From: Rhodobacteraceae bacterium HLUCCO07
Lineage (GTDB): Bacteria > Pseudomonadota > Alphaproteobacteria > Rhodobacterales > Rhodobacteraceae
DNA: 64,000 nucleotides
Assembly: GCA_001314705.1 (NCBI GenBank)
Contig: LJSU01000018.1
Span: 120,308-184,307, forward strand
Direction: 5' to 3'
Shown here: in pieces, positions 56,862-62,315 of the stretch
How positions within the stretch are numbered: position 1 is the first letter of the stretch
Layout: the number at the start of each line of letters is the position of its first letter
The notes under the pieces: model-generated
The model's database searches: none
The model's input: the letters and a program-made list of their open reading frames with translations, nothing else
Told to the model about the DNA's origin: nothing
Program-made: the position numbers and the translations under genes

Positions 56862-57338
56862 ATGACCGATCTGCCCGTTGCCCGTGACCTGCTCTCCGCG
56901 GCCCCCGAAACCATCGCCGATACCGTCGTGCTCGACTACGACGCGCGGCTGATGCGGCGCAAGCGGCTGGTGGGCCGTGGCGGGCTGGCCTTTCTCGTCG
57001 ATCTGGCCGAGGTCACCAACCTTGACGATCACTGGGGCTTCGCCCTCGAAGATGGCCGCGCCGTGGGGGTGGAAGCCGCGCCCGAAGACCTTGTCGAAGT
57101 GCGCGGCGACCTCGCGCGCCTTGCATGGCATATCGGCAACCGCCACACGCCCTGCCAGATCGGCGCCGACCACCTGACGATCCGCCGCGACCACGTGATC
57201 GAGGCGATGCTGACCCATCTCGGCGCCGTGCTGACCCCGGTCAAGGGGCCGTTCCTCCCCGAGGGCGGCGCTTATGGCAAGGGGCGCACGATGGGGCATG
57301 ATCATGGCCACACACATCACACCCACACCCATGCCTGA
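56862..57338 (+). CDS. ureE: Urease accessory protein UreE
   Basis: A 158-residue nickel metallochaperone. The N-terminal peptide-binding domain leads into the metal-binding domain with AWHIGNRHTPCQI (the conserved His region) and a His-rich C-terminal tail (GHDHGHTHHTHTHA) for nickel. The stop overlaps the ureF start (TGATG). Confidence 0.95.
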   Translation: MTDLPVARDLLSAAPETIADTVVLDYDARLMRRKRLVGRGGLAFLVDLAEVTNLDDHWGFALEDGRAVGVEAAPEDLVEVRGDLARLAWHIGNRHTPCQIGADHLTIRRDHVIEAMLTHLGAVLTPVKGPFLPEGGAYGKGRTMGHDHGHTHHTHTHA

Positions 57339-57966
57339 TGCTGACACCCGCGCATCTCACCCTGATCCAATGGCTGTCGCCCGCCTTTCCGACCGGGGCC
57401 TTCGCCTATTCCCACGGGCTGGAACACGAGATCGCGACCGGCATCGTCCATGACGCTGCCAGCCTCGAAAGCTGGCTGACGAATATCCTGCGCTTCGGCG
57501 CGGGCTGGCAGGACGCGGTGCTCCTGGCCCACGCGCTGCGGGATGACCGCGAGGCGCTGGACGACCTCGCCCGCGCGCTTTCACCCTGTGCCGAGCGCTT
57601 GCAGGAGGGGCTGGAACAGGGCGCGGCGCTGGCCCGCGCGGTCGCTTGCATCACCGGGCGCACCCTGCCCCCCCGGATGCTCCCGGTCGCCCTCGGCGAG
57701 GCGGCCACCGCGCTCGACCTACCCGAGGGGGACGTGATCGCGCTTTATTTGCAAGGCTTTGCCGGAAACCTCGTCACCATCGCGATCCGCCACGTTCCGC
57801 TGGGCCAGACCGAGGGGCAGGCCGTGCTGCACCACCTCGCGCCGCTGATCCACTGTCTCGCCAACCGCGCCGCCATGGCACCCCTGGGCGCGCTTGGCAC
57901 CTGCGCGCTGGCCGGCGACCTTGCCGCGCTCTGCCATGAAACCCAAGAGGTAAGGATATTTCGCAC

Positions 57967-57970
<4 letters not shown>
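57338..57970 (+). CDS. ureF: Urease accessory protein UreF
   Basis: A 210-residue all-helical UreF that couples UreG to UreD-urease. Family features are [25 protein letters not shown], the LPLALGE-like segment [10 protein letters not shown] and a C-terminal [13 protein letters not shown]. It overlaps ureG by four bases. Length and order are normal. Confidence 0.95.
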
Positions 57971-58641
<671 letters not shown>

Positions 58642-58715: not shown

Positions 58716-59777
58716 TCAAGTCTGCAGCGGCGGGTTGTCGCTTGCCCGCGGCGGTGGCGGATCAATCAGCCCGGGCGAGAAGAAGGTGTGACAGGCCCGC
58801 CCCCGCCGTTTCGAGGCATAAAGCGCCGTATCCGCGTCCGCCATGATCCGCTCGGCCTCGGGCGTGTCGTAATCACTCGAAAGGGCGGTGCCGCAACTGG
58901 CCGAGATCCGGCAGACATGACCCTCGAACGGAATCGGCTTTTCCATCTCCTCGATGATCCGGCTCGCCACGCGAGCCAGCGCCGCGCGGTCGGTCAGCCC
59001 CTCGAACAGGATCACGAACTCGTCGCCCCCGGTTCGCGCCACCGTGTCCACACCGCGGCGCGTGGCAGCCATCATGATCCGGGCGACCTCCTGCAACACG
59101 TGGTCCCCCGCCGCGTGACCCAACCGGTCATTCACCGACTTGAAGAAATCAAGGTCGACATGCATCAGGGCAAAGGGCACCCCCGCCGCGATCACCCGAC
59201 CCAGCACGTGATCCAGCGCCCGCCGGTTCTTGAGCCCGGTCAGCGTGTCGGTGAACGCCTGTTCCTCCGCGGCGATCTTGGCCCCCTGCAGGCGCAGGTT
59301 GAGCAGGCGCGACGCCTCCATTGCCGCCGATTTCGCCTCGACGAGGTAAAGCATCTCGATCGCCAGATCGGTGGCCGCGAAATCGCCGCTGGTCAACCGG
59401 TAGTCGCGCACGGCATCGAGGATCGAGATCCCGAATGAGAGGTTCACGATCGCCCCGCCCCCGCCCGGCAGCGGCATCAGAACACCCTTGAGCCCGGTCG
59501 CGGGCGTGTCGCGAAACCGCAGGTGCAGCTTGATCCCCGACGAGGCCATCAGGTCGGCCATCGACGTCACCCCGCGCGGGCGACGCAGCTCGAACCTGTC
59601 AAGAAACCGCCCCCCGGTGAGTGGCGCGTCGGGGCGCAGTTTGCGCAGGGTCGGACCGGCGTGAACGACATGCCCGCTCGGGTCGAGCACCACATGCATC
59701 GGGCAAAGCGTGTCGAGGACGCCGCGCCACGCCGCCACGTCGGGCCCGGCACGCTCATCTGCCGCCCGGCACGTCAT
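58716..59777 (-). CDS. Diguanylate cyclase with HNOBA-like sensor domain
   Basis: A 353-residue signalling protein. The start is the ATG at 59777, which overlaps the H-NOX-like stop (ATGA). The N-terminal part (about residues 25-150; MHVVLDPSGHVVHAGPTL, LHLRFRD, LKGVLMPLPGGG) looks like a HNOBA (H-NOX-associated PAS-like) domain, followed by a coiled coil (VEAKSAAMEASRLLNLRLQGAKIAAEEQ) and a GGDEF domain. The active site is intact (RTGGDEFVILF), with an inhibitory RxxD site (RGVD) five residues before it, so it should make c-di-GMP and be feedback inhibited. It is paired with the H-NOX-like protein as in other bacteria. Confidence 0.9.
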   Translation of the reverse strand: MTCRAADERAGPDVAAWRGVLDTLCPMHVVLDPSGHVVHAGPTLRKLRPDAPLTGGRFLDRFELRRPRGVTSMADLMASSGIKLHLRFRDTPATGLKGVLMPLPGGGGAIVNLSFGISILDAVRDYRLTSGDFAATDLAIEMLYLVEAKSAAMEASRLLNLRLQGAKIAAEEQAFTDTLTGLKNRRALDHVLGRVIAAGVPFALMHVDLDFFKSVNDRLGHAAGDHVLQEVARIMMAATRRGVDTVARTGGDEFVILFEGLTDRAALARVASRIIEEMEKPIPFEGHVCRISASCGTALSSDYDTPEAERIMADADTALYASKRRGRACHTFFSPGLIDPPPPRASDNPPLQT

Positions 59778-60361
59778 CCCGCCCGCGCCCCCAGGTCGAA
59801 ATCGCGCCCCTCGGCAAACCCGGTCTCGATCAGCGTGATGTCGATCCACTCCTGCTCGTGCCGGGCGCCGCGATGGTCGAGCAGCACAAGCGCGCCGTAA
59901 TCGTCGGCAAGGGAGCGCAGGATTCCCATCATCACGTGCCCGAATCCGTCCCGCGATCCGCGCACCGTCAGGCTGAACCGGTCGGGCGCATGTTCGTGCA
60001 GTTCGAGATCCGGCAAATCGAGGTCCGGCACCGCCAGCCGCGCCCGCTCGGGCAGGTCACCCAGCGAATGCAGGAATTCCACGAAATCCACCCCGCCAAA
60101 GCGTAACAGGCGGCGCAATGCCTCGGCGTTGGGATGGCTCACAAGATAGGTGCCGATATCCTCCAGCACCTCGTCGCGGGGCTTGCCAAGGTCGCCGCAA
60201 ACCGCGTCGAGGACGCGCGGCGTCAGCGCGCTGTCATAGACCAGCATCGCCTCGAAATCGGTGAATCCCAGGTCCACGGACCGGGCCACCTGCGCCCATC
60301 GCTCCGGCCCATAGGTATCGGTCACGAATCTCTGGATCGCCCTGTTGATCAGTCCATGCAT
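59774..60361 (-). CDS. H-NOX-like protein lacking the proximal haem histidine
   Basis: A 195-residue protein with the H-NOX fold pattern (MHGLINRAIQRFVTDTYGPERW at the N-terminus; FVEFLHSLGDL; DGFGHVMMGILRSLADDYG). Ungapped comparison with the guanylate cyclase beta1 H-NOX puts Pro104 (SLGDLPER) where the haem-ligating His should be (NLDALHDH), and VRGSR (133-137) where the YxSxR motif should be; only the final Arg is kept. Haem binding in the normal way is therefore doubtful. It is upstream of and coupled to the HNOBA-GGDEF gene and probably controls that enzyme. It could sense another ligand or bind haem differently, for example through His98. Confidence 0.85.
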   Translation of the reverse strand: MHGLINRAIQRFVTDTYGPERWAQVARSVDLGFTDFEAMLVYDSALTPRVLDAVCGDLGKPRDEVLEDIGTYLVSHPNAEALRRLLRFGGVDFVEFLHSLGDLPERARLAVPDLDLPDLELHEHAPDRFSLTVRGSRDGFGHVMMGILRSLADDYGALVLLDHRGARHEQEWIDITLIETGFAEGRDFDLGARAG

Positions 60362-60429
60362 GAAACACCCGGCAACTTGCTATCGGCACCGAGACTGCCC
60401 CGGCGGACCTTAACAGGAACTCAACGATC

Positions 60430-62220
60430 TCAATTGTCGGGAATTAGTTCCATGTCGCCGATCCGAAGCGCCCGGAGACCGGCCGGAACGATCTCGAAGC
60501 GCCCGTCCAGTGCCGCGCCGATGATCGCCCCGGCACTGCCCCTTACCTGCGCGCCCGAATCGAGATCGCCGCTCATGTCCTGGGCCCCGCCCGTCCGTGA
60601 CAAGACGCCATCGCGCAACACGATGCCCTGCACCTGCAAACGGTCCGCTCCCATATGCAACAGCATGAAACCGTGTTCCTCGCCGATTCCCGGGTGGAAC
60701 GGCCCGGTAACGGCCACGCATCCCGGCCGCCCGTCGCCGATCTCCGTGTCGCAGGCCCGTGCCCATTCGCTCAGCAGAAAGCCCGGCACCCGGTCCAGCG
60801 CCTCGATCGGCACGGTCCGCGCCCCGGGCATGAGCGTCAGCGTCGCACTCACCGTTTCGGCCATTTCGTCGCTGCCGGTCTCGCGGGTGGCCTGCTCGAA
60901 ACCATAGCGCGACCGCGTCTCTCGCGCTTGCGCCACGGCCCGCGTCAGGCTGGCATCACCCTCCGCTTCGGCGCTGGCCGCCACCCGGTCCAGCGCCGCC
61001 TGCCCGGCATGACCCCAAAGCTGCGCCAGTTCCCACAGCGCCATTTCCCGCGGCTCCAGCCCGCCGCTCTCGATCCGCGCAAGCTGGCTCTGGGCGCTGA
61101 TCCGCGTGGCGTCGATCACCGGCGTGAGCCACAGTCCCGCGGCCACCACCACGGCCATCGCCATCCACCTGTTGGCGCCCCGGATGCGCGCCATCCAGCC
61201 CGCGCCGCGCAGCACCGCGCCCGCATAGGCCACCCCGTAGGCCAGCAGGAACACCGCCGCCAGCCCCGCTGCGAGGCGATCCGGGGTCCAGCCATACTGG
61301 TCCACCCGCCGCCATACCGCAAAGACCGCCAACCCCGCCAGGACCGGCAGCATCAGCGCCATCAACCGCCCGGCGTCGCGGATCACGTCACTTTGCGCCG
61401 CGCTCGCATCGTCACGGTCGGTCGCCGTGGAAATCAGCGTGACCGCCGCCAGCGCCACCCCCATCAGCGTGGCCGCCGGCGAAAGCCCCCCGAACAGCCC
61501 GTCCAGCCCCCGAAACGGGATCGCCGCCAGGAACAGTGCCACCACCGGCAACAGCACCGGCAACATCAGCCGCAGAAGGCGGTGGATGACGAAGGGCGAG
61601 ACATAGGCGCGCATCTCGTGCACCACCTGGATCGCCAGCCCCAGCAACAACCCGCTCAGGACATAGGGCACCGGATCGAGGTCGATGAAATCGGCGATGA
61701 TGGTGATCCCCACCAGGTGCAACAACTGGTCCGACAGCATCAGCACCGCCCAGAACAGCGCGGTGAAAAGCACCGCCGCGACATAGCGCACCACGATCAT
61801 CCACGCCGCATCGAACAAGAGCGGATAGCGCCTCCAGCCCCCCCGCTCGGCACAACCTGCGGCGGCGAAAGGCGTGGCGATGAACAGGATCGCGCCCAGC
61901 GCCACCGCCCCGTGCCCGTGTTTCATAAGGTCATGCGCCTGCGGATACCGCAGCGAGGCAAGCCAGATCAGCCCAGCCGCAGGCAACGCGATGCTCAGCG
62001 CGCCCAGCGCCGCACGCCCGATCCGCTCGGGTCCGCCCAGCGCCAGCAGCACACCGAACCCGCCGAGGATCAGCGTGGCCAGCACCAGCAACAGCCGCTG
62101 ATCGTCCAGCGCATCGGGCAGCACATCCACGAACAGCCAAAGCGCCAGCCCCGCCGCCGCGCCGATCACGGCCATCTCCGCCCGGTTGCGCGTGATCCTG
62201 CGATCGCCTGCCCTTGCCAT
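60430..62220 (-). CDS. DUF4153-family polytopic membrane protein
   Basis: A 596-residue protein with about ten to twelve hydrophobic segments in the first 400 residues, then a soluble C-terminal region with a repetitive Ala/Glu/Arg-rich helix and a beta-rich end. The start at 62220 has GAGGAGG upstream; the ORF begins with a GTG at 62241. The membrane part resembles DUF4153 (DUF4173-type) proteins, whose function is unknown. It is a single gene in the H-NOX direction, 68 bases away. The layout suggests a membrane sensor or transporter; no motif decides this. Confidence 0.7.
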   Translation of the reverse strand: MARAGDRRITRNRAEMAVIGAAAGLALWLFVDVLPDALDDQRLLLVLATLILGGFGVLLALGGPERIGRAALGALSIALPAAGLIWLASLRYPQAHDLMKHGHGAVALGAILFIATPFAAAGCAERGGWRRYPLLFDAAWMIVVRYVAAVLFTALFWAVLMLSDQLLHLVGITIIADFIDLDPVPYVLSGLLLGLAIQVVHEMRAYVSPFVIHRLLRLMLPVLLPVVALFLAAIPFRGLDGLFGGLSPAATLMGVALAAVTLISTATDRDDASAAQSDVIRDAGRLMALMLPVLAGLAVFAVWRRVDQYGWTPDRLAAGLAAVFLLAYGVAYAGAVLRGAGWMARIRGANRWMAMAVVVAAGLWLTPVIDATRISAQSQLARIESGGLEPREMALWELAQLWGHAGQAALDRVAASAEAEGDASLTRAVAQARETRSRYGFEQATRETGSDEMAETVSATLTLMPGARTVPIEALDRVPGFLLSEWARACDTEIGDGRPGCVAVTGPFHPGIGEEHGFMLLHMGADRLQVQGIVLRDGVLSRTGGAQDMSGDLDSGAQVRGSAGAIIGAALDGRFEIVPAGLRALRIGDMELIPDN

Positions 62221-62315
62221 GTCCTGCCTCCTCGATTCCACGTCAGACTAGCCGCATTCGCTCGGTTGACGCAGCCCCAAAATCCACAGGCCGTTCCAGC
62301 CCCGTGCGCACTGCA

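Follow-up and report, generated by a model that had tools for sequence, protein, structure and literature searches.

An H-NOX-fold protein lacking the haem-ligating histidine and its partner diguanylate cyclase: one member of a large Rhodobacteraceae clade

In ordinary H-NOX sensors, NO breaks the bond between the haem iron and a histidine of the protein, and the freed helix alters the activity of a partner. Haem is not present in every H-NOX domain, and the alpha subunit of soluble guanylate cyclase (sGC) has an H-NOX domain without it. The literature accessible to our search contained no biochemistry of an H-NOX protein with proline in place of the proximal histidine, whereas genetic and comparative work on proteins that lack this histidine has been published. 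The H-NOX of P. denitrificans (Pden_3719) has no axial His, as in R. sphaeroides (Kumar & Spiro 2017, PMC5588039, where the Rhodobacter sphaeroides protein lacking His is cited from Iyer et al. 2003); its gene, hnoX, overlaps a GGDEF gene, and biofilm is altered in the mutants, including upon deletion of the H-NOX gene itself. In P. denitrificans, the behaviour of mutants in hnoX and in dgc is consistent with an H-NOX that inhibits the cyclase. Group 5 H-NOX was described as a very large cluster in which fewer than 10% of the members keep the proximal His, most have Pro, and conserved Cys is absent (Lee-Lopez & Yukl 2022, PMC8738867). For Dinoroseobacter shibae, PMC8846402 (a review) and PMC7232146, which relay Bedrunka et al. 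2018, state that NO-bound Hnox (Dshi_2815) inhibits Dgc1, and the former lists Hnox as a haem NO sensor. The V. cholerae H-NOX works as a haem-free redox switch with a Cys/zinc site (PMC7108781).

We analysed a 64,000-nucleotide stretch from Rhodobacteraceae bacterium HLUCCO07 (the window), in which an hnox gene (positions 59774 to 60361, minus strand) encodes a 195-residue protein from an ATG start. The Pfam HNOB profile covers residues 2–156 with 88.9 bits (cut-off 25.5), phmmer aligns the protein to Nostoc H-NOX with an E-value of 5.5e-17, and a profile search identified it as the sole HNOB protein in its genome. The AlphaFold model, with a mean pLDDT of 86, shows the complete H-NOX topology. 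Among solved structures, Foldseek places Nostoc H-NOX and human sGC beta-1 nearest to it (E 1e-13), with TM-scores of 0.80–0.86 against Nostoc H-NOX; the top structural match is 4iae, in which Nostoc H-NOX has the drug BAY 60-2770 bound. The H-NOX descent proposed in a preliminary description of this DNA is therefore borne out by the HNOB score, phmmer, and Foldseek alike. An artefact of chance or reading frame was considered and rejected, as the profile score, the fold, and about 130 orthologous operons are concordant.

Both hallmarks of canonical haem-binding H-NOX proteins, the proximal His and the YxSxR propionate motif, are missing from the window protein. In the phmmer alignment, P104 (codon CCC, 60050 to 60052, minus strand) sits under Nostoc His105, the haem ligand, with 'NLHARV' in Nostoc facing 'DLPERA' in the window protein, and the model places it within helix 93–110, which normally bears the ligand. 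The former YxSxR motif corresponds to codons 133–137 (59951 to 59965, minus strand), which read V R G S R; V133, G135, and R137 align to Tyr134, Ser136, and Arg138 of Nostoc H-NOX, so that Tyr and Ser are gone and Arg is retained (two of the three positions lost). A MAFFT alignment of homologues concurs with phmmer on P104 and on V133/G135/R137. The preliminary description had made both calls by eye, and they stand: the Pro-for-His replacement in the phmmer, MAFFT, and profile alignments, and the broken motif in the first two. No other His was found at the proximal position in these three alignments, which place P104 there with no gaps nearby, and a misalignment concealing another proximal His was rejected on the same grounds. 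The missing ligand gives sound grounds for expecting that the window protein has probably given up conventional NO sensing.

The partner diguanylate cyclase (353 residues; 58716 to 59777, minus strand) comprises an HNOBA/PAS region, a helix (residues 138–174) of the kind found in signalling coiled coils, and a GGDEF domain in which both the GGDEF motif (RTGGDEF) and the RxxD I-site (RGVD) are intact. Its ATG at 59777 overlaps the hnox stop codon by four bases (ATGA) and is the likely start, in place of the GTG at 59849 at which the mechanical ORF list begins the gene. In the window cyclase itself, HNOBA scores 23.0–23.3 bits, 0.1–0.4 below the cut-off of 23.4. The label 'HNOBA-GGDEF' is nevertheless right, because 42 of 45 cyclase orthologues match HNOBA at E ≤ 0.001 and a profile built from the 45 finds the H-NOXA/PAS structures 2p04 and 2p08 along with the PAS region of sGC beta-1. 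The overlap, the motifs, and the orthologue profile together uphold the earlier suggestion of a translationally coupled HNOBA-GGDEF partner with intact GGDEF and I-site.

The divergent H-NOX proteins of this family and their cyclases form an obligate pair. Wherever at least 1.3 kb of DNA follows a divergent copy, an adjacent cyclase with perfect GGDEF and RxxD motifs lies on the same strand (129 of 129), and the ATGA overlap is shared by 91 of these 129 pairs. Among canonical H-NOX genes of the same family, a GGDEF gene adjoins only 2 of 31. The adjacency in all testable relatives lends good support to the proposal that the H-NOX protein serves a dedicated c-di-GMP cyclase.

What had been presented as a peculiarity of one protein turned out to be the norm across a large family of bacteria, and had been published earlier. 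Using 398 evenly drawn genomes of the window organism's family, we recovered an HNOB match in 299 and distinguished two H-NOX classes: a canonical minority with His and YxSxR, and a lower-scoring divergent majority. In a codon-level pattern census of the 398 genomes, 170 had the Pro form and 16 the His form, counts that miss some members, such as the probable D. shibae protein, because the patterns require neighbouring conserved residues; the Pro form is present in 155 of the 353 genera sampled, and the reversed control pattern had no match among the genomes listed. Of 131 distinct divergent proteins, 106 have Pro at the proximal position, 10 have His, 7 have Ser, and 8 have another residue, with P, H, S, N, A, R, Q, and Y all occurring there, and YxSxR is lost in all 131, including those that keep His. 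A signature pattern of the clade matched 3 of 289 class-wide genomes, all three from the same family, and none of about 285 genomes outside it, although the pattern misses some true members, among them the window's own copy.

In the tree, the divergent clade stands apart from canonical H-NOX with an SH-aLRT support of 85. His-type members are scattered, several of them near the base, but support within the clade is weak; the topology calls for at least 10 changes at the proximal position, too poorly supported for us to claim a number of losses. Trp occupies the YxSxR Ser position in 6 of 10 His-type proteins (L062, L038, L050, L036, L034, and L154) versus 4 of 106 Pro-type proteins. A coupling of His with this Trp and with Pro112 (Fisher p 1e-5 and 1e-4) was rejected when it failed a phylogenetic test, there being too few independent pairs. 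One His-type clade member, locus L156 (G244:C24:241161-241622), carries an in-frame TAA and is likely a pseudogene. Locus L035 (G082:C4:118741-119217) is a canonical-type H-NOX with Tyr and Ser intact and Gln for the proximal His; judging by its sequence, this loss of His is apparently a separate event outside the divergent clade.

Positions that never vary across the 131 divergent proteins include the hinge glycines G70 and G146 as well as P117 and F96. H2, E37, E67, D68, R83, R84, and R87 are near-invariant and absent from the family's canonical H-NOX, and the same applies to R106, R149, D153, D154, Y155, and the motif GRxFxL. When the 180 columns are ordered by variability, those of Ser and Arg in the former YxSxR motif stand at 157 and 168, among the most variable, whereas positions of the former pocket (I5, I9, L73, F96, L100, and V143) are hydrophobic. 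This pattern fits a working protein freed of its haem contacts rather than one in decay.

The window protein does not differ in any basic respect from Group 5 H-NOX, of which it is one more member, encoded in an Aquicoccus-like genome: mostly Pro for His, no conserved Cys, conserved hinge glycines, a gene that overlaps or lies beside a GGDEF gene, and the same bacterial family. The subfamily itself has thus already been published, and what we add is the loss of YxSxR even where His is kept, the obligate pairing, the invariant charged residues, and the CtrA-like box described below. Locus L154, probably the D. shibae Hnox, belongs to the divergent clade, has lost YxSxR, and adjoins a GGDEF gene, so it resembles the window system in clade, operon layout, and motif loss; it differs in keeping the proximal His, and the D. 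shibae protein is reported as a haem sensor that inhibits its cyclase when NO-bound. Canonical proteins (Nostoc, Shewanella, and Legionella Hnox1) share the fold, the hinge glycines, the ligand-position helix, and control of c-di-GMP enzymes or kinases, but possess the ligand His and YxSxR that the window protein lacks. The domain order H-NOX, HNOBA/PAS, coiled coil, and nucleotide cyclase is that of sGC, from which the window system differs in being split into two proteins, in its GGDEF output, and in having no haem ligand. The V. cholerae protein shows that haem-free H-NOX signalling is possible in principle, although it has a Cys/zinc site and a proximal His, neither of which is found here.

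The fold, the loss of the ligand residues, an intact cyclase, and an obligate partnership are all observed, and the reading that we consider fairly probable is that the window protein is an H-NOX subunit that works without haem, or binds it in a non-canonical way, and controls the cyclase dedicated to it. Together the two proteins would make up a c-di-GMP switch with the layout of an sGC cut in two and given a diguanylate cyclase output. The H-NOX domain is free-standing, the cyclase has the order PAS(HNOBA)-coiled coil-GGDEF, and a single operon, probably controlled by CtrA, would supply both through translational coupling. The H-NOX would bind its partner at the PAS and coiled-coil region and set the activity of the cyclase, which may be inhibited whenever the H-NOX is 'on', the behaviour reported in D. 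shibae. Iron cannot be tethered by Pro, which leaves NO no Fe-His bond to break at Pro104; the domain would, as a consequence, either rest with its 'tether released', inhibiting the cyclase, or respond to some input that is not NO acting on a His-ligated haem. Among the Foldseek matches of the window model is 2kil, the H103G structure of So H-NOX, which reportedly represents a kinase-inhibiting state mimicking NO. The relaxation of the haem contacts and the charged residues that have newly become invariant favour a haem-independent input. Against this, loss of YxSxR is no proof of haem loss, because the D. shibae Hnox, apparently without the motif, figures in PMC8846402 as a haem NO sensor; and haem might still sit loosely in the residual hydrophobic pocket or be bound there through a different ligand. 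More tentatively, and with more doubt than conviction, we suggest that in the largest Rhodobacteraceae H-NOX lineage the haem pocket may have become that of a haem-free receptor for a different signal, with an NO-type default state, the His- and Pro-type orthologues recording the transition.

One alternative reading is that haem is still bound and NO still sensed, either through another axial ligand (His2, His76, or His98) or with the haem held by the pocket and NO alone. His2 is present in 127 of 131 divergent proteins, where most canonical H-NOX of the family have Lys, and His76 and His98 each occur in 105 of 131; the pocket is still hydrophobic, and the D. shibae Hnox acts in its NO-bound form though its YxSxR appears lost. 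We nonetheless regard this as unlikely: the probable D. shibae protein has no His98, the YxSxR Ser and Arg columns belong to the most variable, and His2 is common to the divergent proteins with or without a proximal His, which makes it unlike a compensating ligand. The conserved hydrophobic pocket residues named above, retained as the haem-specific contacts were lost, could also be read as a site for a different small hydrophobic molecule that is the true signal of the cyclase. That the best structural match carries BAY 60-2770 and that the near-invariant charged residues are new would agree with such a ligand, but a hydrophobic core is conserved in any fold, and we give this possibility rather little credence.

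Decay of the sensor into a protein without a regulatory role would account for the variable ligand position and for the in-frame stop in one His-type copy (G244). This reading is already largely refuted, and we judge it very improbable: dozens of residues are invariant, the Pro form persists in those 155 genera, the pairing with an intact cyclase is obligate, the promoter box is conserved, and deletion of hnox in P. denitrificans alters biofilm. A Cys/zinc redox sensor of the V. cholerae kind would also be haem-independent, yet it needs three or four Cys and the window protein has one (C55), on which account we rejected it for this protein; no alignment column of the divergent clade exceeds 65% Cys, Group 5 has no conserved Cys (PMC8738867), and the chance that this mechanism operates here seems vanishingly small. 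The haem-independent or non-canonical subunit remains our preferred account.

With about three quarters of the sampled genomes of this dominant marine family carrying H-NOX, most of it ligand-less and yet annotated as NO sensors, predictions of NO sensing via H-NOX in the family are unsafe. His-type and Pro-type orthologues share a dedicated cyclase, which makes the question of the Group 5 signal easier to test. NO itself may matter to the window organism, because its genome encodes NnrS, a point that counts against our preferred account; as regards denitrification, no Cu nitrite reductase scored above the cut-off in this genome.

Upstream of the operon, a CtrA-like box, TTGAGTTCCTGTTAA (60410 to 60424, minus strand), matches TTAA-N7-TTAA with one mismatch and starts 63 bases upstream of the hnox ATG. 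A box of this type (at most two mismatches) lies upstream in 124 of 130 relatives, against about 39 expected from shuffles, and starts between -76 and -50 in 102 of those 124. In D. shibae and Phaeobacter inhibens, hnox and dgc belong to the CtrA regulon and are down-regulated in CtrA-pathway mutants (PMC11974857), and the upstream box agrees with this published regulation; CtrA may bind at the candidate box. Across about 100 relatives, the box lies near -60 of the hnox-dgc operon and has a consensus close to TTGGG-N4-T-N-TTAAG, and TTAA-N7-TTAA is also frequent at the same place upstream of the family's canonical hnox genes.

On the other side of the pair, urease accessory genes (UreF-like and UreG; 57338 to 58641, plus strand) converge on the cyclase gene, and no urease accessory homologues were seen near hnox in the 76 relatives examined. 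Directly upstream of hnox and on the same strand lies a gene for a DUF4153 membrane protein (60430 to 62241, minus strand). Of the 76 relatives that have flanks of about 4 kb, 34 carry a DUF4153 homologue on the same strand, hinting at a wider conserved neighbourhood.
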